A DNA stretch of 64,000 nt from the NCBI GenBank assembly GCA_016765135.1, contig JAESQN010000002.1, forward strand, positions 62,001-126,000, given 5' to 3'. The stretch is from Robiginitomaculum sp. GTDB taxonomy: Bacteria; Pseudomonadota; Alphaproteobacteria; Caulobacterales; Maricaulaceae. Of this stretch, positions 42,483 through 61,495 are shown piece after piece. The notes beneath the pieces are model-generated. The model searched no databases, had not been told where the DNA came from, and saw only the letters and a program-made list of their open reading frames with translations. The translations under genes were made by a program, and so were the position numbers. Numbering within the stretch: the first letter of the stretch is position 1; every line of letters begins with the position of its first letter.

Positions 42483-43253
42483 TCATATGTCAATATTCCT
42501 CGCCTCGGCAATCAACCTGCGCATTTCCGCAATCGCGGGCTTTAGCCCCATAAATACCGCCTCGCCGATAATAAAATGACCAATATTTAGCTCTTTCCCT
42601 TCCGAGATAGCCGCGATAGGGCTTACATTACCGAACGTTAGTCCGTGGCCGAAATGGACTTCCAGGCCCAGGGCATCCGCTTGTTTGGCCCCGGCTCGCA
42701 TGGCTTGCAACAAGGCTTCCGCCTTGTCCGCATCACCCGCGTCCAAGGCATGGGCATAGGCACCCGTGTGGAACTCCACCACTTGTGCGCCGCATTTATG
42801 GCTTGCTTCAATCTGGTGCGGCACGGCTTCGATGAACAGGGAAACGCGGCTCCCATTTTCGGCCAAGGCGCGGGCGATGTGGGTGATTTGGTTGTGTAAA
42901 CCTGATGCGTTCAGCCCGCCCTCTGTGGTACGTTCATTACGGCTTTCCGGCACTAGGCAAACGGCATGGGGTTTGGTGGCCAAGGCTATTTCAAGCATGT
43001 CTTCAGTTGCGGCCATTTCGAAATTAAGCGGCTTGCCAAGCTCAAGGCACAAAGCCTGCAAACGGGTCATATCATCATCATTGATATGGCGGCGGTCTTC
43101 GCGCAGATGGGCGGTGATACCGTCCGCACCGGATGCAATGGCCAAACGCGCCGCATCAACCGGGCAGGGATGCGTCCCACCGCGTGCGTTTCGCAGGGTG
43201 GCCACATGGTCGATATTGATACCTAATCTTGGTGCATCAAGTCTGGGTAGCAT
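42483..43253 (-). CDS. pdxJ: Pyridoxine 5'-phosphate synthase
   Basis: 256 residues, full-length TIM barrel. The N-terminal RLGINIDHVATLRNARGG and TAHLREDRRHINDDD, the middle VCLVPESRNERTTEGGLN and the C-terminal FGHGLTFGNV and LNIGHFIIGEAVFMGL are all family landmarks. It condenses 1-deoxyxylulose-5-phosphate and 3-amino-2-oxopropyl phosphate into PNP, the last step of the DXP-dependent vitamin B6 pathway. The start shares one base with the pyrE stop, so the two are coupled. Confidence 0.97.
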   Translation of the reverse strand: MLPRLDAPRLGINIDHVATLRNARGGTHPCPVDAARLAIASGADGITAHLREDRRHINDDDMTRLQALCLELGKPLNFEMAATEDMLEIALATKPHAVCLVPESRNERTTEGGLNASGLHNQITHIARALAENGSRVSLFIEAVPHQIEASHKCGAQVVEFHTGAYAHALDAGDADKAEALLQAMRAGAKQADALGLEVHFGHGLTFGNVSPIAAISEGKELNIGHFIIGEAVFMGLKPAIAEMRRLIAEARNIDI

Positions 43254-43837
43254 TAAACTAGCCCCCGGCTTCCAGGTTTAACGGCGGGCAATGCTGCCAG
43301 TTCCGGCGGCAAATCATCCTTGTCATAGGACGGGAATACCCGTGACGCCAAACTGATCAACGGCACACCAATATCGGCTTTACCGCCGGAGCGATCGAAA
43401 ATACACGCCCCGGCAATCACCTTGGCACCTGTCGCATTGATAGCCTCTATACATTCGCGGGAGCTAAGACCGGTGGAGATAATATCCTCTATCATCAACA
43501 CTTTATCGCCGGGTTTTAATGTAAACCCGCGCCGCAAAGTAAACGCGCCATTTTCCCGCTCAACAAAAATTGACTCCAAACCAAGCTGTCGTGCCATTTC
43601 GTAACCCGGTATCACACCGCCCATAGCCGGTGCGACAATAATGTCCGGCATAACATCAAGTTCGCGGCGGATTTTATCCGCCAAAGCCGCACACAATTTT
43701 TCGGTCAAGACCGGGTTTTTAAACACAAAAGCTTTTTGCAAAAACACGGGGCTACGCCGCCCGCTCGACAAAATAAAGTGCCCTTCCAGCAATGCGCCTG
43801 CATCTTTAAATACGTCCAATACATCATCGGTCTTCAT
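43253..43837 (-). CDS. pyrE: Orotate phosphoribosyltransferase
   Basis: 194 residues. The N-terminal [17 protein letters not shown] substrate loop, the flexible-loop region and the PRPP-binding motif [16 protein letters not shown] (about residues 113-128) are present. The enzyme makes OMP from orotate and PRPP. It lies between rsh and pdxJ; a pyrE-pdxJ link also occurs in other alphaproteobacteria. It is 54 bases from rsh, so the whole rsh-pyrE-pdxJ-acpS-lepB-rnc-era-recO block could be one transcript, with the family C element as the only large interruption. Confidence 0.95.
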
Positions 43838-53071: not shown

Positions 53072-54658
53072 ATGTCGGACACATCTAATCTAGCGCCTAA
53101 CGATATTGAACCAAGCATGGAAGATATTTTATCCTCCATCCGTAAGGTCATAGCCGACGATATAGCGAGTGAAGAAACGCCACGAGATCAGCAGATCGCT
53201 ATAGATGCCGGGGCCGTTCAAGAGAATAATCAGCCAGATACACAGCCTGATGAATTGCAAATCGCAGCGCCCTCCATAGAACAAGTCGGGGAACAAGTCG
53301 GGGAACAAGAGAGCGACACTCTTGAGGACATACTTGATCTAGAAATGCTTGTTGAAGATCTGGAAAACGAACTACAGCCTGATACTGATACCGATGCTGA
53401 CCTACAGCTTGATAGCGATACTGACCTCATGTCAGACCTCATCAATTTTGATGAGAACGACCTTGTGGCTGTCCCCGAAGAGTTGGAAATAGAAGATATT
53501 TTGGGGCCAGAAAAGACTATTGAAGCGCAGGCGGTGACTGGCTCTACTGAACTTGGGTTTGACGCGACCCTTGATCTGGTCATGGATTCGGACGCAAATG
53601 ATTATGTCACGACCGGCACTCTACTTCCCGAGGCCGAGACTGAAATCACAGATACACAAGTAACAGATACACAAGTACAGGCACATTATAGCCCGCCAAA
53701 TAATCCGCCAGTTGAGGTAGAGGAAATTGTGGAGATTGAAGACATCTCAACAGGGGTTTCGCATTTCTCCGGCGGCGACATGACCGAGGGTGAAATCAGT
53801 TTGGAAACGGATGATATATCTGAAACCGAGCCGCCAACACCGGATGAAGATATAGATCTGGTTAAATCCCTGCTCGCAGATTTGATGGACGAACCTGTTG
53901 AAGCCGAGGTGGAAGCCGCGCTTGACATTGAAACACCGGACATTGAAAACAATGATATATTTGATACAGATATAGATGCAATCGCCGAGGAAGGTTTTTT
54001 GGCGGAGGAATTGATTATCCCCGAACCTGCCGAATTTCTGGCCCCAGAACCTTTTGTTGAAGAAGAACCTTCTGCTGAAAGCGCAGAAGGTATAACGGCC
54101 CAAGACGCAGACATGGACATTGTTCTTGAAGGCTCTGAAGCCGACACTGCATTATCCGAAATCGCGAAATCCGCCCGTGCGGCAGGTGAGGCTGACCTCA
54201 CCGAAACCAATTCCGAAATACAGTCTGATGATATTGTGGATATATCCAAAACAGATATGATTTCAAAACTGGCCCTGCTTGCCGGCACGGCATCTGAGGC
54301 TGACGAACAGCAAGTTGAAAACGAAATCGCCGATTTAATTGAACCAATACCTGCCGAAGATGAACCCGCAACACCCACAATAGAAGAACCAGCACAGGAG
54401 GACGACGCCATGGGAACCCCTTTACAAAAGGAAAGCCTTATTGACGAGGAAACGGAAAAAGACACAAGCTCTGCCTTTGCTTCATTGACCAGTGCCGTTG
54501 CCGAAAAATCCTTGGCTGAAGAAAACGGCCCGCCCATCGGCGAGTTGGTCAAGGAAGCACTCAAACCGATGTTGCAAGAATGGCTGGACAATAATCTCAA
54601 AGCCATGGTGCAGCGCGCCGTGACCAAAGAGATCAAGCGGATTTCTTCAAGTAAATAA
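53072..54658 (+). CDS. popZ: PopZ polar organizing protein (DUF2497), with a greatly enlarged acidic linker
   Basis: 528 residues, about three times the 177 of Caulobacter PopZ. The N-terminal client-binding helix is clear (EPSMEDILSSIRKVIADDI, about residues 13-31). The C-terminal oligomerisation region is also clear (GELVKEALKPMLQEWLD, then NLKAMVQRAVTKEIKRISS). Between them lie about 430 residues very rich in Asp and Glu, with short internal repeats (EQVGEQVGEQ; TDTQVTDTQVQ) and no predicted globular domain. PopZ forms a polar condensate that anchors the chromosome and cell-cycle regulators, and its acidic linker tunes fluidity. Position between tolC and valS supports orthology. Confidence 0.92.
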   Translation: MSDTSNLAPNDIEPSMEDILSSIRKVIADDIASEETPRDQQIAIDAGAVQENNQPDTQPDELQIAAPSIEQVGEQVGEQESDTLEDILDLEMLVEDLENELQPDTDTDADLQLDSDTDLMSDLINFDENDLVAVPEELEIEDILGPEKTIEAQAVTGSTELGFDATLDLVMDSDANDYVTTGTLLPEAETEITDTQVTDTQVQAHYSPPNNPPVEVEEIVEIEDISTGVSHFSGGDMTEGEISLETDDISETEPPTPDEDIDLVKSLLADLMDEPVEAEVEAALDIETPDIENNDIFDTDIDAIAEEGFLAEELIIPEPAEFLAPEPFVEEEPSAESAEGITAQDADMDIVLEGSEADTALSEIAKSARAAGEADLTETNSEIQSDDIVDISKTDMISKLALLAGTASEADEQQVENEIADLIEPIPAEDEPATPTIEEPAQEDDAMGTPLQKESLIDEETEKDTSSAFASLTSAVAEKSLAEENGPPIGELVKEALKPMLQEWLDNNLKAMVQRAVTKEIKRISSSK

Positions 54659-54695
54659 TTTTCTGGAATTGTGCGCAAGTGCGCGTTAAATGAAC

Positions 54696-54723
54696 AAACC
54701 GCTCTCTGTGATAGAGGGCGGTT
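54696..54723 (+). terminator. Hairpin between popZ and valS
   Basis: AAACCGCTCTCT (54696-54707) and AGAGGGCGGTTT (54712-54723) form a 12-bp stem with one G-U pair and a 4-base loop. It lies 37 bases past the popZ stop and 20 before valS. Works as a popZ terminator or as a leader structure for valS. Confidence 0.75.
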
Positions 54724-54742
54724 TATTTATGTGAGAAATGAC

Positions 54743-57700
54743 ATGTTGGACAAGAGCTTTAACCCCGAGCAAGCCGAGCAGCGCATTTACGAAGCTTGGG
54801 AAAGCAGCGGTGCGTTTAAGCCCCGCCCTGCCAAATCGTCGGATACCAAGGACGACAATTATTCTATCGTCATCCCGCCGCCCAATGTCACAGGTAATCT
54901 GCATATGGGCCATGCGCTCAACAACACCCTGCAAGACATCCTCATCCGCTATAACCGTATGCTCGGCAAGGCGGTGCTCTGGCAACCGGGCATGGACCAT
55001 GCGGGCATTGCCACGCAGATGGTGGTCGAGCGCCAAATGGCCGAAGCGGGCGAACCTAAACGCACCGAGATAGGCCGCGAAGCTTTCATCAAGAAAGTCT
55101 GGGAGTGGAAAGAAAAGTCCGGCGGGACTATTGAAAAGCAAACCCGGCGTTTGGGTGCGTCTTGTGACTGGTCACGCACACGCTTTACCATGGACGACGG
55201 GCTGTCGGACGCGGTGCGCAAAGTATTTGTGCAGATGTATAATGAGGGGCTGATTTACCGCGACAAACGTCTGGTCAATTGGGACCCCCACTTCCAGACC
55301 GCTATCTCCAATATCGAGGTCGAGAACGAAGAGCGAGACGGGTTTTTCTGGCATTTCAAATACCCGCTGGAAAACGGCGAGACTTATGAATATGTCGAGA
55401 AAGACGAAGACGGCAAAATCACCCTGCGCGAAACCCGCGACTATATTTCCATCGCCACCACACGCCCCGAAACCATGCTCGGCGACGGTGCGGTCGCGGT
55501 ACACCCGTCCGACGAACGCTACGCGCCCATTGTCGGCAAGAAAGTCCTCCTGCCCCTCGCCGACAGATATATCCCCATCATCACCGACCGCTATCCCGAC
55601 CCGGACAAAGGCTCCGGCGCCGTAAAAATAACAGGTGCCCACGATTTCAATGACTACGAAGTCGCCAAGCGGCACGACTTGCCTATGCATGTCATCATGG
55701 ACGAAAAAGCCCGCATGAAAGCGTCCGACATCATGCCGGAAAAATATGTCGGCATGGACAGGTTTGTTGCCCGCAAAGCCGTGGTCGCGGATATAGACGC
55801 GCTGGGCTTGTTAGAGAAAATAGAAGATCACAAAGCCGCCGTCCCCATTGGCGACAGATCAGGCGTAGTCATAGAGCCCATGTTGACGGATCAATGGTAT
55901 GTAGACGCGAAAAAGCTGTCGGTTGATGCGGTGGGGGCGATGGACGCGGGGCATAATGCTACCCCTTCCTCTACCGCTCATTCCCCCCCCCCTCCCTCCA
56001 CTCATTCCCGCGAAAGCGGGAATCCAGTTCAAGACATAAAGGGAGCGCCAAAAGCGCTCACATCATCCGCTGGATCCCCGATCGAGCCGGGGATGAGCGG
56101 GGGTAAAGGCGGAGGGATGACCTCGGACAAAGGCGAAACCCGTTTCATCCCGCCAAATTGGAAAAAAACATGGGACCAATGGATGGACGACATCCAGCCT
56201 TGGTGTATCTCCAGACAACTCTGGTGGGGCCATCAGGTTCCGGCTTGGTATGGGATTAGTTTAGAGGGCATTGAAAATTATGAAAGAGATAGACAACTTT
56301 CAAAAGAAATTTTTGTCGCAGAAAATGAGGTTGATGCAATAAAACTAGCGCAGAGTTATTACGGAAAATCTGTCAATATTAGTATTGTAGAAGATGGTGT
56401 CACTCTTCATTGCCATGATGAAGATGAAAATCTTTGTTCGATAGAATTGGTACGCGACCCAGACGTCCTGGACACTTGGTTCTCGTCCGGCCTGTGGCCG
56501 TTTGCCACCCTCGGCTGGCCGGAACAAACTGACGAGTTTGACCGCTTCTACCCGACCTCTACCCTTGTTACCGCCTTTGATATTATCTTTTTCTGGGTGG
56601 CGCGGATGATGATGCAGGGTTTGCATTTGACCGGGAAAGTGCCGTTTAAGGACGTGTATATCCATGCGCTGGTGCTGGACGAACACGGCCAGAAAATGTC
56701 CAAATCCAAGGGCAATGTGGTTGACCCGCTGGTGCTTATTGACAAATACGGCGCAGATGCCCTGCGCTTCTCCCTAGCCGCCCAAGCCGCCCAAGGCCGC
56801 AACATTCGGCTGTCCGAACCCCGCATTGAGGGCTATAGAAATTTCGGCACCAAGTTATGGAACGCCGCTAATTTCTGCCAGCTTAAAGGCTGTGCGCCTG
56901 TCGCCGATTTCGATCCCCTCGCATGCCAGCAAACCGTCAATAAATGGATTGTCGGCGAAGTTGCCAAGGCCAGTGCGCAAGTCACATCAGCCATCGAAGC
57001 CTACCGGTTCAACGAAGCCGCAGACGCCGCCTATAAATTTTCTCGCGGGCAATATTGCGATTGGTATGTTGAATTGATCAAGCCGGTATTTGACAGCGAA
57101 GACAAAGCCGCCATAGCCGAGACAAAAGCCTGCGCCGCATGGGCCTTTGATCAAATCCTGAAAATGTTGCACCCGTTCATGCCGTTCATCACCGAGGAGC
57201 TTTGGAGCCAAACGGCGGGCGCAACACCACGGGACGGATTCCTGATGGCGGCCTCCTGGCCTGATATGAGCGATAATTACATCAACACCGAAGCCGAAAC
57301 AGACATTGCCTGGCTCATCGACCTGATCAGCGAAGTCCGCTCTGTGCGCACCGAAATGAACATCCCGCCGTCCAAGAAAGCCAAAATGGTTTTGGTCGGC
57401 GCGAGCGCTGGGACTATCTCTCGTATGGGCACTTATAAAGAAGCCCTGGAGCGCATGGCCCGCATGGAAAGTTGGGAGACCGCAGACACAGCCCCCAAAG
57501 GCGCAATCCAGGCGGTCGTCGGCGAAACCACTATCGCAATGCCGCTCACGGGCTTGATTGATTTGGACGCCGAACGCACCCGAATCGACAAAGAAATCGC
57601 CAAGGTCGAGGTCGAGATAAAGAAAATCGACGGCAAACTCGCCAACAAAAACTTCACCGACCGCGCCCCTGCCCATGTTGTTGAACAAGAGCACACAAGA

Positions 57701-57763
57701 CGGGTAGCGTTTACGGTAGAGTTGGAGAAGCTAAAAGCAGCGCTGGATAATTTACCGGAATAA
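54743..57763 (+). CDS. valS: Valine--tRNA ligase with an in-frame repeat insertion
   Basis: 1006 residues from the ATG at 54743 (MLDKSFNPEQ). Class I motifs NLHMGHALN (HIGH) and KMSKS are intact, as are the CP1 editing domain and a C-terminal coiled coil (DLDAERTRIDKEIAKVEVEIKKI in part). Between KKLSVDAVGAMDAG and DKGETRFIPPNW, where homologues run straight on, there are about 58 extra residues (about 404-461). They are encoded by the palindromic unit at 55976-56098 and include HSRESGNP and GSPIEPGMSG. A separate AT-rich stretch at about 56255-56450 codes for the variable region before RDPDVLDTWFSS. Frame and motifs suggest a working enzyme. Confidence 0.97.
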   Translation: MLDKSFNPEQAEQRIYEAWESSGAFKPRPAKSSDTKDDNYSIVIPPPNVTGNLHMGHALNNTLQDILIRYNRMLGKAVLWQPGMDHAGIATQMVVERQMAEAGEPKRTEIGREAFIKKVWEWKEKSGGTIEKQTRRLGASCDWSRTRFTMDDGLSDAVRKVFVQMYNEGLIYRDKRLVNWDPHFQTAISNIEVENEERDGFFWHFKYPLENGETYEYVEKDEDGKITLRETRDYISIATTRPETMLGDGAVAVHPSDERYAPIVGKKVLLPLADRYIPIITDRYPDPDKGSGAVKITGAHDFNDYEVAKRHDLPMHVIMDEKARMKASDIMPEKYVGMDRFVARKAVVADIDALGLLEKIEDHKAAVPIGDRSGVVIEPMLTDQWYVDAKKLSVDAVGAMDAGHNATPSSTAHSPPPPSTHSRESGNPVQDIKGAPKALTSSAGSPIEPGMSGGKGGGMTSDKGETRFIPPNWKKTWDQWMDDIQPWCISRQLWWGHQVPAWYGISLEGIENYERDRQLSKEIFVAENEVDAIKLAQSYYGKSVNISIVEDGVTLHCHDEDENLCSIELVRDPDVLDTWFSSGLWPFATLGWPEQTDEFDRFYPTSTLVTAFDIIFFWVARMMMQGLHLTGKVPFKDVYIHALVLDEHGQKMSKSKGNVVDPLVLIDKYGADALRFSLAAQAAQGRNIRLSEPRIEGYRNFGTKLWNAANFCQLKGCAPVADFDPLACQQTVNKWIVGEVAKASAQVTSAIEAYRFNEAADAAYKFSRGQYCDWYVELIKPVFDSEDKAAIAETKACAAWAFDQILKMLHPFMPFITEELWSQTAGATPRDGFLMAASWPDMSDNYINTEAETDIAWLIDLISEVRSVRTEMNIPPSKKAKMVLVGASAGTISRMGTYKEALERMARMESWETADTAPKGAIQAVVGETTIAMPLTGLIDLDAERTRIDKEIAKVEVEIKKIDGKLANKNFTDRAPAHVVEQEHTRRVAFTVELEKLKAALDNLPE
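55976..56098. repeat. Palindromic repeat unit inserted in frame within valS
   Basis: Outer GCTCATTCCCC (55976) pairs with GGGGATGAGC (56089-56098). Inner hairpins are ATTCCCGC-GAAA-GCGGGAAT (56004-56023) and ATCCCCG-ATCGAGC-CGGGGAT (56074-56094). GGGAATCCAG and CTGGATCCCC also pair at long range. The ATTCCCG...CGGGAATCCAG type is a dispersed repeat in many proteobacteria; translated in this frame it reads HSRESGNP. Confidence 0.85.
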
Positions 57764-57942
57764 TCCTTCCTCCATTTTTCATGGGGGAAGTGCCGAAGCT
57801 CTTGCGTAGGCGATGGGGGCAGACGCTCTTGCGTCTCAACGATGGTATCGATTATTACAAAAGCTCAGAAGCGCACAAGATGTGCGCGCCCCCATCCCCC
57901 TCTAAGAAGAGGGTACTTCCCCCGCAAGAGGCAGGGGAAGGA
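57764..57942. repeat. Palindromic repeat family C, copy 2
   Basis: TCCTTCC (57764-57770) pairs with GGAAGGA (57936-57942); GGGGGAAGT pairs with ACTTCCCCC, and GATGGGGGC with GCCCCCATC. The inner AGACGCTCTTGCG matches copy 1. It starts at the base after the valS stop and ends six bases before the convergent peptidase's stop, filling the whole gap; a two-way terminator role is plausible. Confidence 0.88.
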
Positions 57943-57948
57943 AGTATG

Positions 57949-60900
57949 TTACCGCTTACCCAACACCAGCTCCAGTTTCATGGTTTCCCCTGCCCGGTCT
58001 ATGACAAGCTCGACCTTATCGCCGGGACTGTATTTTTTAAGCTCGCCCGAATAGGCCCGCAAATCTTTGACGGGTTCGCCGCCGAAATGGGTGATGACAT
58101 CGCCTTCTTGCAAGCCTGCTTTGGCCCCGGCGCTACCATCCGAGACCATTTTCACTTTTACACCCGCGCCCTCAAAGGCGAAATCTGGCATCATGCCTGT
58201 GCTGACACGCCGCCCGCTTCGCCTTACGGATGATGTGGCGGCTTTGCCGTTTGTGGGTGTGATCTGGTTAGTCATGGGGTCGGGCCTGGTGCCGAGATAG
58301 CCCACGACTTCCTTGGTCAATGTGGCAACACGAACAAGGCTGTCCGGGTCAACCGTACCGGCCATGTCGGACGGGCGGTGATAATCGGTCGTGGCTGCGC
58401 CGAAAATATGTATGGCTGGGATATTTGCCTCCAGGAATGCCGTGTGATCCGAAGCATTGACTTCTTGATTGACAAGAACGGTTTGGATGCCCGTGGTCGC
58501 CGTGGTGCCCATGAAAATGAACGGCCATTCGCGGGCGGATGATGTACCGAAAACCATGATTTTATCCCCGGCCCGGCCCACCGTATCCAGATTGACATTG
58601 GCGAAAATTTTATCCGCCGGATAATCCTTGGCCGTTTTGACATAATGTCGTGCGCCCAACAGCCCGGCCTCCTCGGCGGTGGAGGCTAATAATATGATTG
58701 TCCGGTCAGGCGCAGATTTGGCGAGCGAATGGGCCATCTCCAGCATGACTGCCACGCCGGACGCATTATCATCAGCGCCGGGATGGACTTGCCCCTTAAA
58801 TTCGTCCCGAGCGCCGGGCCAACCATGGCCAAGATGATCATAATGGGCCGAGAGAACAACCGACTGCCCGGCGAGTTTTGGATCTTTGCCGGGGATGACA
58901 CCCACGACATTTCGAACCTCTACTTTTGTGCCTTTTGGGCCATCAACTGTGAAAGATTGAAAATATGTGCTTGCATCGCCGCCGGGTTTGAGACCTGCCG
59001 ACTTGAATTCAGCCGCTATATAATCAGCGGCCTTGCCAAGACCAGCCGTGCCAACGCCCCTGCCCTCATAGGCTTCGGCGCTTAAAGTTTGCACCACGCC
59101 CATCATACGCGCCGCATCAAATACGGGTTTAAGTTGGGCCAAGGCCGGGCGGGGTTTTAGCTTGGCGGTTGAGGTTACGGTTTTATCCAGCACCGCCACC
59201 AAAGGCGAACCAACGGCGCCCCATTGACCTTTAGCGGAGTTGGTCGGGTCGTCGCCGTTAAACGCCAGATATGAATATTTGCCGTAATGGGGTAATTTAC
59301 GCGCCAGCCCGGCTACGGCCGCGTCCGAATGGGCCGTCAGACCGACAACCACTGCGCTGGAATTTTCAGGATTACGCACGGCGATAACGGTGGAATTTTC
59401 GCGCAGGCTAAGGGATTTATCGCCCAGAGTAGCCGTGTTATTTAAAATACTGGCGTCGTAAACTTCAAGAGAATGCTTGACCACGCCGTAATATTTGTTG
59501 TCCGCACCGAACACCCAAACCGCCCCGTCTTCGGGCAAAAGGCTGATATCCGTATCTTTGACGATCTCGACATTCTCCCGCCCGCTCCAAAGCGCGGCCA
59601 GTTTGGAATATCGGGATTTCTTCTCCGGGCTTGTGCGGGTCGGCAAGATAATCATAACCTTGTCGGCCCCAAAAGCCGCGCCCAAAGACGGCGGGATTTC
59701 GGCCCAATGCAAACGGCGAAACAAATTGAACTCAGGGTCAACCTCAACACGGATAACTTTGCCATCGACGGGGATAGAAAACACTTGCTGGCGTTTGGTC
59801 ATATGCACGGTGCTGCGTGTCACCGTATCAGCCGTATATATGACAACAGGGACTTGCAGATCAAAAGCATCGCGGCTTTGGTTTTGCTGAAGTATAAGTG
59901 TAAGGTTTTCGCCCTCCTGGGCTGCTTTTTCTATGGCCAATTCCGGTGCACCAACACCGCCGACCCATTGCTCGAAAAACGGTTTTAAATCTTCGCCCGT
60001 GACCTCCTCGAACGCTATGCGAATATCGTCCCATCTCCCGACACTATATTTGTGCTTGCGGTAAAAACTCTGAAAACTACGCAGAAAATTCTCGTCCCCG
60101 ACCTTGTCGCGCAGCATGTCAAACACCATGGAGGTCTTGCCGTAGCCAACCGCCTGGGTCGGGCCGTCCGTGCGGCCAATGAAATCTTGCAAGGCGAAAT
60201 CATTGGAAGCATCCACATAGCTGGTATAATTTTGCAGGGTCGCGCGGCGATATTGCGCGCCTGTACCGCGCTGCTCGGCCACCAGATGATCAGCCATATA
60301 GGCGGTCAGTCCCTCGGCCCAATTACCACTGTCAAAATCAATATAAACCGAATTACCCCACCAATTGTGCAGGAGCTCATGGGGGTAGGACGAATGCAAG
60401 ATAAACGGAAACCGGATGATCCGCGACCCTAACAAGGTAAAGCTCGGCATGCCGTAGCCGGTCTCCCAAAAGTTCTCGACCAGGGCGAATTTGGTATAGG
60501 GGTACGGCCCCAGCATTTCGCGGTACATCTCCATATATTGCGCCGTAACTTCCAAATATTTATTGGCCATAGCTTCGTCCGGCGTGCGCAAATATGCCAT
60601 GGCAGTGACGTTACCAATAGGTAGCTCGTATTGGGTAAATTCGGCCCCGATGACATATATTTCTTCGCTCGGGGTCGGGGCTGTCCATCTATCTATATGC
60701 ACGCCGCCCACATCTTCATTGCGCTTACGTTCGCCTTGGGAGACGGACGACCAACCCTGGGGCAAAGTCACGGTCATATCATAGGTGATCAGCGTGTCTT
60801 TAACGGTTGGCACCCAATAGGTGGCCCCGGCCAAATAAACGCCGCGCTGCTCGATCAAGCCCGGCGAGGTGGAAAAACCCCGCGAATATTCTGCGCCCAT

Positions 60901-61350
60901 CTGTTTGATAGGGTTGTTGATTTCTCCGCTATAGGACAAGGTAAGTGTGTTAGTGCTCTTCGTATTAGTACTGGCCGAAAACCCGCTCAGCTCATAAACA
61001 TTGACCTTGACAATGCTATCATCGGAAGCATTGTCCCGGTCCATGCCGAGATCATCCGCATTGCGGTTTTCAGCCACCAGTTTAAAATTGATGTTACCGT
61101 CCGTTTTTTGGACGGATAAATTCGAATTGAGCAAAATTTGCAATCCGTCTCTGGCAAGACCCGGCGGTATAGTGATCGTATCAACAGCCTCTAATTTGTG
61201 GATGTCGGGCGTAATCGTGACAGCAATCTCGTGATGGAGCGGTGTTTCAACGCCCGCGTCAACTTGCTCTTTTTCTTTGGGCGTACAGGCCGTGAATGCT
61301 AAAACGACTAAAAAGGCAAAGCCAAGACGAATAAATTGATAGGAAAACAT
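57949..61350 (-). CDS. M1-M28-PDZ fusion metallopeptidase, predicted lipoprotein
   Basis: 1133 residues from the ATG at 61350, preceded by AAGGG (61368 is the longer alternative). A lipoprotein signal ends in FTAC. The first third is an M1 aminopeptidase-like domain: the zinc motif HELLH with downstream Glu in NWAEGLTAYMAD (about residue 325-355). After a roughly 350-residue middle, an M28 peptidase domain follows with HYDHLG, GADDNASG, TAEEAG, NLDTVG and TDYHRPSD, all five metal/catalytic blocks. The end is a PDZ domain (GSAGAKAGLQEGDVITHFGG). Combined aminopeptidase activity for peptide scavenging is inferred. Confidence 0.88.
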   Translation of the reverse strand: MFSYQFIRLGFAFLVVLAFTACTPKEKEQVDAGVETPLHHEIAVTITPDIHKLEAVDTITIPPGLARDGLQILLNSNLSVQKTDGNINFKLVAENRNADDLGMDRDNASDDSIVKVNVYELSGFSASTNTKSTNTLTLSYSGEINNPIKQMGAEYSRGFSTSPGLIEQRGVYLAGATYWVPTVKDTLITYDMTVTLPQGWSSVSQGERKRNEDVGGVHIDRWTAPTPSEEIYVIGAEFTQYELPIGNVTAMAYLRTPDEAMANKYLEVTAQYMEMYREMLGPYPYTKFALVENFWETGYGMPSFTLLGSRIIRFPFILHSSYPHELLHNWWGNSVYIDFDSGNWAEGLTAYMADHLVAEQRGTGAQYRRATLQNYTSYVDASNDFALQDFIGRTDGPTQAVGYGKTSMVFDMLRDKVGDENFLRSFQSFYRKHKYSVGRWDDIRIAFEEVTGEDLKPFFEQWVGGVGAPELAIEKAAQEGENLTLILQQNQSRDAFDLQVPVVIYTADTVTRSTVHMTKRQQVFSIPVDGKVIRVEVDPEFNLFRRLHWAEIPPSLGAAFGADKVMIILPTRTSPEKKSRYSKLAALWSGRENVEIVKDTDISLLPEDGAVWVFGADNKYYGVVKHSLEVYDASILNNTATLGDKSLSLRENSTVIAVRNPENSSAVVVGLTAHSDAAVAGLARKLPHYGKYSYLAFNGDDPTNSAKGQWGAVGSPLVAVLDKTVTSTAKLKPRPALAQLKPVFDAARMMGVVQTLSAEAYEGRGVGTAGLGKAADYIAAEFKSAGLKPGGDASTYFQSFTVDGPKGTKVEVRNVVGVIPGKDPKLAGQSVVLSAHYDHLGHGWPGARDEFKGQVHPGADDNASGVAVMLEMAHSLAKSAPDRTIILLASTAEEAGLLGARHYVKTAKDYPADKIFANVNLDTVGRAGDKIMVFGTSSAREWPFIFMGTTATTGIQTVLVNQEVNASDHTAFLEANIPAIHIFGAATTDYHRPSDMAGTVDPDSLVRVATLTKEVVGYLGTRPDPMTNQITPTNGKAATSSVRRSGRRVSTGMMPDFAFEGAGVKVKMVSDGSAGAKAGLQEGDVITHFGGEPVKDLRAYSGELKKYSPGDKVELVIDRAGETMKLELVLGKR

Positions 61351-61495
61351 GAGCACAGCCCTTTTCATTAGTTTAAAACAAGCTCCCAGAGCTTACGCAC
61401 AACCCCCGTATTATACAAGTATTTAGCATGAAATCTGGGATAACCCCTCCAGCCAGCACCCCCTTGCACCTATGTTTCAAGCATTACTTTCAAAA

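Follow-up and report, generated by a model that had tools for sequence, protein, structure and literature searches.

The window, by which we mean the whole 64,000-nucleotide stretch of DNA that was analysed, carries the valyl-tRNA synthetase gene valS on the forward strand at 54743–57763, as identified from its ORF, a genome search and NCBIfam models. The reading frame is unbroken from the ATG at 54743 to the stop codon at 57761–57763 and encodes a protein of 1006 aa (ValRS). Downstream, on the opposite strand (57949–61368), lies a gene for a 1139-aa protein with peptidase M1, peptidase M28 and C-terminal PDZ domains. ValRS scores far above the cut-off of the NCBIfam valine--tRNA ligase models, and the stretches matched by these models are split at residues 402 and 462, indicating that the enzyme is intact on both sides of an extra segment, as an earlier note on this DNA had held. 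valS occurs in one copy in this genome, the further matches in a genome search being weak and belonging to other class I synthetases. A second copy that might relieve the gene was thus ruled out, since the genome has none.

The extra segment is coding DNA beyond the canonical ValRS and was delimited by comparison with uninserted relatives at 55946–56131 of the forward strand (about residues 402–463). The span from EPMLTDQW to CISRQ comprises 115 residues in this ValRS versus 54 in the canonical enzyme, an excess of 61. The earlier note had counted about 58 added residues; its placement of residues 404–461 at 55952–56125 stands, and it is the excess over uninserted relatives that comes to 61. 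Conserved borders enclose the extended loop, A/R-G-H on the left (55946–55954) and K-G-x-T-R-F on the right (56129–56146), both on the forward strand. Within the insert, on the same strand, is a run of ten C (55983–55992), the only run of eight or more C or G, or of nine or more A or T, in the window; it is possibly prone to slippage or miscounted in the assembly. No intein model is among the 17 NCBIfam matches. A scan of 54600–58100 with Rfam for a ribozyme or RNA-level function gave no match in the insert, and the sole match in that interval, at 54693–54743 and outside the insert, is below threshold.

A full-length copy of a dispersed palindromic element of 103 bp occupies 55998–56100 (forward strand) and matches our covariance model with an E-value of 8.6e-17, the valS copy being itself among the 14 copies from which the model was built. 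The repeated unit, given as 123 bp in the earlier note, is 103 bp. The ends of the element are 8-bp terminal inverted repeats, CCACTCAT at 55998–56005 and ATGAGCGG at 56093–56100, which in the valS copy pair at seven of eight positions. Three hairpins had been claimed for the added DNA and all three are found on the forward strand: hairpin 1, ATTCCCGC-GAAA-GCGGGAAT, at 56004–56023, which is read as (H)SRESGN; a central hairpin, GAGCGC...GCGCTC, at 56043–56059; and hairpin 3, ATCCCCG...CGGGGAT, at 56074–56094. The identical 20 nt of hairpin 1 are present in further copies in the genome. Additionally, a second, partial left end, CCGCTCATTCC, lies at 55974–55984 (forward strand) and precedes the full element by 24 nt; this spacing recurs in valS of two other genomes (G003 and G006).

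The 14 copies from this genome, valS included, have a mean column identity of 79%. Their consensus forms a clover-leaf of 34 pairs that consists of the outer repeats CCGCTCAT/ATGAGCGG, hairpin 1, an inner stem (ATCCAG/CTGGAT) enclosing the central hairpin, and hairpin 3; two-sided changes occur in 7 of the 34 pairs. When folded as RNA, 55950–56125 gave a z-score of −3.11, with none of 200 shuffles equally stable. The shorter insert alone gave −2.76, inside the range of control windows from the same genes (lowest −2.91), so that the RNA hairpins of the window by themselves prove nothing. Allowing up to three mismatches, the rest of the window contains no further occurrence of either hairpin motif (chance expectation 0).

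Predicted place in the enzyme and the IleRS control

The earlier note had proposed to locate the insert on a predicted ValRS structure. In an AlphaFold2 model built from 30 sequences (mean pLDDT 83.1, pTM 0.78), residues 409–462 of the insert have a pLDDT below 50 and lie between a helix (389–405) and a strand (467–469). The insert is predicted by this model to be a disordered loop. Superposition of the model on the ValRS of T. thermophilus (1gax) gave a Z of 38.1 with 784 residues aligned at an rmsd of 2.8, and the added residues map between residues 371 and 376 of 1gax.

As a control, we compared isoleucyl-tRNA synthetase (IleRS) in the same relatives. Among 17 genomes with a long valS insert, 11 gave an unbroken, near-full-length IleRS match with net length differences of up to about 23 residues, and one (G003), whose gene lies at the end of a contig, gave the same kind of match from residue 11 onwards. 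Of the remaining five, G014 and G132 had a match interrupted by an extra loop at a different position, G131 a partial match, and G089 and G135 none. Over all 22 genomes compared, 16 gave a single long match, the same two were broken, two were partial (G012 and G131) and two (G089, G135) had none. A general tolerance of class I synthetases for insertions and deletions was rejected on this control, given one long match in 16 of 22, although the control is incomplete, five of the 17 long-insert genomes having a broken, partial or missing match. The two broken IleRSs, of G014 (L304:740–910) and G132 (L305), carry some 30–40 extra residues in the loop after IYVKFPVR; in the IleRS sequences that were read, those of G008, G014 and G132, the extra residues look non-palindromic by eye.

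Dispersal and movement of the repeat

A BLAST search of the genome (2.87 Mb in 52 contigs) with the element gave 16 non-self matches at E≤1e-5. The covariance model gave 74 matches on both strands, corresponding to at least 41 places (E≤0.01), a lower bound because 150 of 1103 first-look candidates were scored. The claim that valS contains, in frame, a dispersed palindromic repeat is thus confirmed, and the proposed search for further copies showed that one of the 41, the valS copy, lies inside a recognised gene, where the frame is open for at least 100 nt on both sides. Two more copies (C38:200593 and C30:29307) also lie in frames open for at least 100 nt on both sides. Across 38 genomes the model found matches in 28 and none in 10, all counts being lower bounds as 106–150 first-look candidates were scored per genome out of some 550–1,370. 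At least 86 matches were found in G007, at least 74 in G028, which belongs to another family, and at least 48 in G003. The valS copies themselves score strongly, with E-values of 8.6e-17 in this genome (G000), 3.6e-17 in G003 and 1.6e-18 in G007. The valS of G028 (family f5) is uninserted in spite of these at least 74 matches; an abundance of repeats is not enough for the valS site to be filled.

An intergenic copy at C38:107263 records movement of the family. The orthologous site is filled in G003 and G007 and empty in G004 and G008, where the stop of the upstream gene overlaps the start of the downstream gene (TGATG in G004, TAATG in G008); G002 and G006 carry different DNA at this place. 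Some 140 bp have been added in the filled site, with ATG at both borders where stop and start overlap; this ATG may be a target-site duplication but is very short for one. The filled and empty orthologous sites indicate that the element family moved within the genus. In valS, no target-site duplication could be resolved.

The only Y1_Tnp match in the genome (G000:C42:222–557) is not supported as the mover of the element, as the hairpins adjoining it, GTGGATTA...TAATCCAC, differ from those of the element. The locus of this Y1 transposase (L248:132–785, that is, G000:C42:222–557 and downstream) is also present in G003 (L247). It is perhaps of the RAYT type and could possibly be a REPtron.

The valS site across relatives

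We searched 137 genomes of the family and obtained a ValRS match in 117. The GTDB family of this genome, which holds Maricaulis and Hellea, is Maricaulaceae; NCBI taxonomy places Hellea in Robiginitomaculaceae, Maricaulales. Leaving out the 20 genomes without a match, 22 with a distant type of ValRS (∼30% identity) and three others (G010, G063, G141), 92 ValRSs were read: 18 have a long insert, 9 a short one of 9–11 residues (G002 and the eight members of genus g24 that were read) and 65 none. The long inserts add 32–87 residues in the 17 that were measured; that of G044, in which valS reaches the contig end soon after the insert, is also long. By genus they number six in g1, two in g2, one in g6, five in g9, one in g12 and three in g28. 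Outside the family, ValRS was uninserted in each of the 16 genomes that were read from the order's other families. The earlier note would have been undone by distant orthologues all carrying the same residues. These did not turn up: ValRS has the canonical length in 75 of the 77 readable among 80 named alphaproteobacterial loci (three unread), the two exceptions being a Rhodobacteraceae MAG with a 59-residue span and a Hellea MAG.

BLAST among the 18 inserts yielded six groups with no cross-matches at E≤1e-3. Group A comprises 11 genomes (G000, G003, G005, G006, G007, G008, G018, G044, G093, G131 and G135), group B three (G014, G088 and G090), and G055, G089, G094 and G132 are singletons. The idea of a single insertion in one genome thus falls: 18 genomes of six genera hold six groups, and the RGH part of the loop is older than the present repeats. 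Within group A, the inserts of G000, G003 and G007 are 83–92% alike, and G018 resembles a decayed element without hairpins (HSSESQN...SSDGIGG). The sisters G132 and G135 carry unrelated repeats. Folding gave z-scores of −3 or lower in 13 of 17 long inserts (G044 has no score); those falling short were G000 (−2.76), G088 (−1.07), G006 (−0.08) and G018 (+0.55). The 34 control windows from the same genes, which lie upstream of the site and were compared with 50 shuffles as against 100 for the inserts, averaged −0.67.

Outside the genus, dispersal was tested for three inserts from two genera, and each of them proved to be a dispersed repeat of the genome that carries it; the rest were compared with the available loci. 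The G093 insert consists of two adjoining repeats and is matched by 45 pieces in the remainder of its genome, with identity reaching 100% over 37 nt. For G094 there are 55 such pieces, the best being 79% identical over some 126 nt, and for G132 there are 13, which are shorter and looser (best 82% over 49 nt). In these counts some pieces represent both strands of one place. The close matches of G093 and G094 to their own genomes indicate that at least these two inserts were either acquired or renewed in the lineage that carries them.

On a 90-row ValRS tree built without the insert, the starred branches force at least nine changes of the long-insert label, a number that is soft because the tree comes from a quick search and contains long branches (G131, G069, G042) and a half-filled row (G003). 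Uninserted rows inside inserted clades are back to the exact canonical length, which is not what simple decay would give.

The borders of the loop follow the insert. The R/A-G-H border is found in 15 of the 17 long rows and in all 9 short ones (24 of 26 together), whereas none of 64 uninserted rows has it. It is encoded by varied synonymous codons, which, together with its occurrence in the inserted rows, argues that the border is old. On the other side, the residue before F is R (in one case H) in 17/17 long inserts and R in 4/64 uninserted sequences.

In group A, nine genomes were examined for codon phase, which is common to all 12 left ends of the element and to 8 of the 9 right ends. In five genomes the left end is placed at nucleotide 93 or 96 within the span, almost equally far from RGH. 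The same frame is open in 6 of 15 intergenic copies from this genome, so the phase is not imposed by the repeat. Phase, distance to RGH and the decay in G018 together suggest that group A is probably, at least in part, one old insertion rather than the product of repeated uptake. Taken with the RGH...KGxTRF frame, the single codon phase in this largest group suggests an old extended loop whose content turns over and not many fresh openings.

Hairpin 1 of group A keeps its pairing while the peptide shifts from HSRESGNP to HPDESRDP and HPHESGEP. Its covariation, calculated from 10 sequences of which 8 are distinct, is 0.411, against at most 0.129 for slid and 0.145 ± 0.044 for shuffled alignments (0/500); two of the five measures, pairs with two-sided change and pair types, fall within the shuffles (270/500 and 458/500). 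The pairing is best explained by renewal from copies in the same genome, by insertion or conversion, and a direct constraint on structure could also contribute.

Origin of the loop and likeness to known repeats

We consider it likely that the palindromic repeat is a passenger in a tolerant ValRS loop, the contents of which turn over among unrelated dispersed families. The insert would be a mobile, non-coding MITE- or REP-like repeat in which a central hairpin is flanked by two inverted hairpins whose outer ends are of the GCTC type. It would sit in frame in a disordered surface loop running from the helix after the editing domain to the strand that leads to CISRQ, and would be translated as a passenger and retained in the mature enzyme. 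The loop, RGH ... KGxTRF, was probably extended already in an ancestor of this part of the family. Since then, palindromic repeats from several dispersed families that are unrelated to one another would have entered it, been lost from it, been renewed and been exchanged for others. Such turnover would follow because the loop tolerates almost any open sequence, the insert being close to neutral there, whereas insertions at most other places would be purged by selection. A transposase would presumably mobilise the repeats in trans, and their renewal may proceed by new insertion or by gene conversion.

A single old insertion that was inherited and diverged widely, combined with many exact losses and no hot spot, would account for the common RGH and KG borders, for the phase shared within group A, for the decayed appearance of G018 and for the likeness among G000, G003 and G007. 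It has difficulty with the six groups that lack mutual matches, with the unrelated repeats of the sisters G132 and G135, and with inserts that match repeats of their own genomes, closely in G093 and G094 and more loosely in G132. As an account of the whole site we find it unlikely, though it deserves to be kept in play.

The loop and its repeats could instead have spread by short-tract recombination between valS alleles (VDDGSTKF versus RGH...TRF), with the repeats themselves hardly moving here. The scattered distribution on the gene tree is consistent with such exchange, as are residues by the site that change with the insert state (R or H before F in all 17 long inserts, R in 4 of 64 uninserted rows). 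However, in five pairs of sisters with and without an insert (G055/G024, G094/G079, G090/G091, G093/G080 and G005/G012) the first 60 nt of the flanks are 75–97% alike, with no consistent drop in identity relative to windows further upstream, the ungapped comparison failing further downstream. Large imported tracts are therefore unlikely and any tract must be very short. Exchange of alleles also leaves unexplained why the contents match repeats of the same genome, and we rate it below the single old insertion, at perhaps one of the poorer bets.

Selection on the insert as a functional segment of ValRS, for tRNA or partner contact or for regulation, is improbable: the frame is always open in an essential single-copy gene and RGH is conserved at the protein level, but the 32–87 extra residues are of unrelated sequence, are missing from 65 of 92 family members, are predicted to be disordered and, in group A, change while the hairpin pairing is kept. 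An assembly error or chimera is scarcely credible, for although repeats break assemblies, most of the genomes are drafts, and the ten-C run and the contig end in G044 invite caution, the insert is in frame in all 18 genomes, including single-contig G014 and G094 with about nine contigs, and an orthologous element is common to G000, G003 and G007.

Palindromic repeats that lie in frame in genes, tRNA synthetases included, are already known from the Rickettsia palindromic elements (RPEs) and the CGTC-tagged REPs. The RPEs and the palindromic elements of Wolbachia are palindromic, about 100–150 bp long, dispersed and in frame in housekeeping genes (PMC3767692, PMC10969869). RPE-7 sits in IleRS and in PheRS beta, RPE sites are solvent-exposed, and orthologues can differ in the RPE group that occupies the same or almost the same position (PMC3767692, PMC10969869). 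The valS element resembles an RPE in its 103 bp, its at least 41 places and its position in frame in a housekeeping gene that stays open. Its site is a loop between helix 389–405 and strand 467–469 that is predicted to be disordered and may be exposed. The likeness drawn in the earlier note thus holds for the way in which the element works. It does not extend to a large share of copies in ORFs, as 1 of 41 copies lies in a recognised gene here, as against almost half of the R. conorii RPEs. Unlike the RPEs, the element occurs among free-living relatives of another order, and six unmatched groups share one site.

The CGTC-tagged REP superfamily comprises CGTC-1 to CGTC-4, including dRS3 and RPE-4/RPE-6 (PMC3733652). 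Its members have a hairpin of 8–9 bp starting with AT, a loop of 4–5, a CCA tail and a 4-base tag in front; they are predominantly alphaproteobacterial and do not flank transposase genes (PMC3733652). The stem, loop and tail of our element, ATTCCCGC-GAAA-GCGGGAAT-CCA, are of this type. Its tag in the consensus is GCTC and not CGTC; TGTC and CCTC variants have been published (PMC3733652). By eye, the inserts of G014, G088, G090 and G094 have CGTC or TGTC ends. In contrast to a CGTC REP, our element has 8-bp ends and consists of a tail-to-tail pair with a third hairpin in between. No dedicated RAYT adjoins it, the Y1 locus having other hairpins, which is in line with the described absence of CGTC repeats beside transposase genes (PMC3733652). 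CGTC and GTAG REPs also lie in ORFs of many species, and X. oryzae, E. litoralis and S. alaskensis have them in tRNA synthetases. In two Xanthomonas, recB is struck at about the same site, and other genes of one functional category at different sites (PMC3733652).

To set against these cases, the new feature is one essential site filled by many unrelated repeats in free-living bacteria. In the open-licence literature we found no essential site with six unmatched repeat groups over six genera, no palindromic or REP insertion in a valyl-tRNA synthetase, no such repeats in these genera among the titles listed, and no paper on the peptides HSRESGNP, SREGGNP or SRESGNP. REPIN/RAYT systems and MITEs are small, palindromic, bounded by terminal inverted repeats and thought to be moved in trans. 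Like a MITE, the element has terminal inverted repeats (CCGCTCAT/ATGAGCGG); a cognate RAYT flanked by the same repeat, as in a REPIN/RAYT system, is lacking in this genome, which has the one Y1_Tnp match.

How often selfish DNA turns into protein, and why certain sites receive it repeatedly, has been examined chiefly in Rickettsia and Wolbachia, obligate intracellular bacteria for which weak selection readily offers an explanation. In the present case the gene encodes an essential enzyme of alphaproteobacteria related to the free-living Maricaulis and Hellea, and the site offers many natural replicates at one codon position with uninserted sister species as controls. The R. japonica paper considers for same-site repeats in orthologues either a hot spot or one diverged origin and leans towards the latter, a view that concerned RPE-4, RPE-6 and RPE-7 (PMC3767692). 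Going beyond the passenger reading, the ValRS loop could be a standing acceptor that, owing to its tolerance and perhaps to a preferred DNA target, has taken in six or more unrelated families in separate lineages, and in which the palindrome is kept at the level of DNA, over the protein, by re-insertion or conversion from dispersed copies; on this we come down slightly on the side of doubt. If true, it would settle the Rickettsia question in favour of a hot spot for this clade. Whether the loop is a hot spot or the relic of one old insertion, and what the insert costs, can now be tested with strains and a well-studied enzyme, making the valS loop a natural test case for selfish DNA that becomes protein.

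Other small palindromes were seen in this genome. Two single hairpins related to each other lie in frame in the pyruvate dehydrogenase E2 gene (C7:43064; L014:1440–1700, C7 about 43,004–43,263), within the linker that follows the lipoyl domain. They are read as LDSRLRGNERG and SAHTRDGGYPD and are absent from the covariance-model matches. In the spacer after valS, at 57809–57899, an imperfect 12-nt inverted repeat, GGCGATGGGGGC / GCCCCCATCCCC, is perhaps another small repeat.
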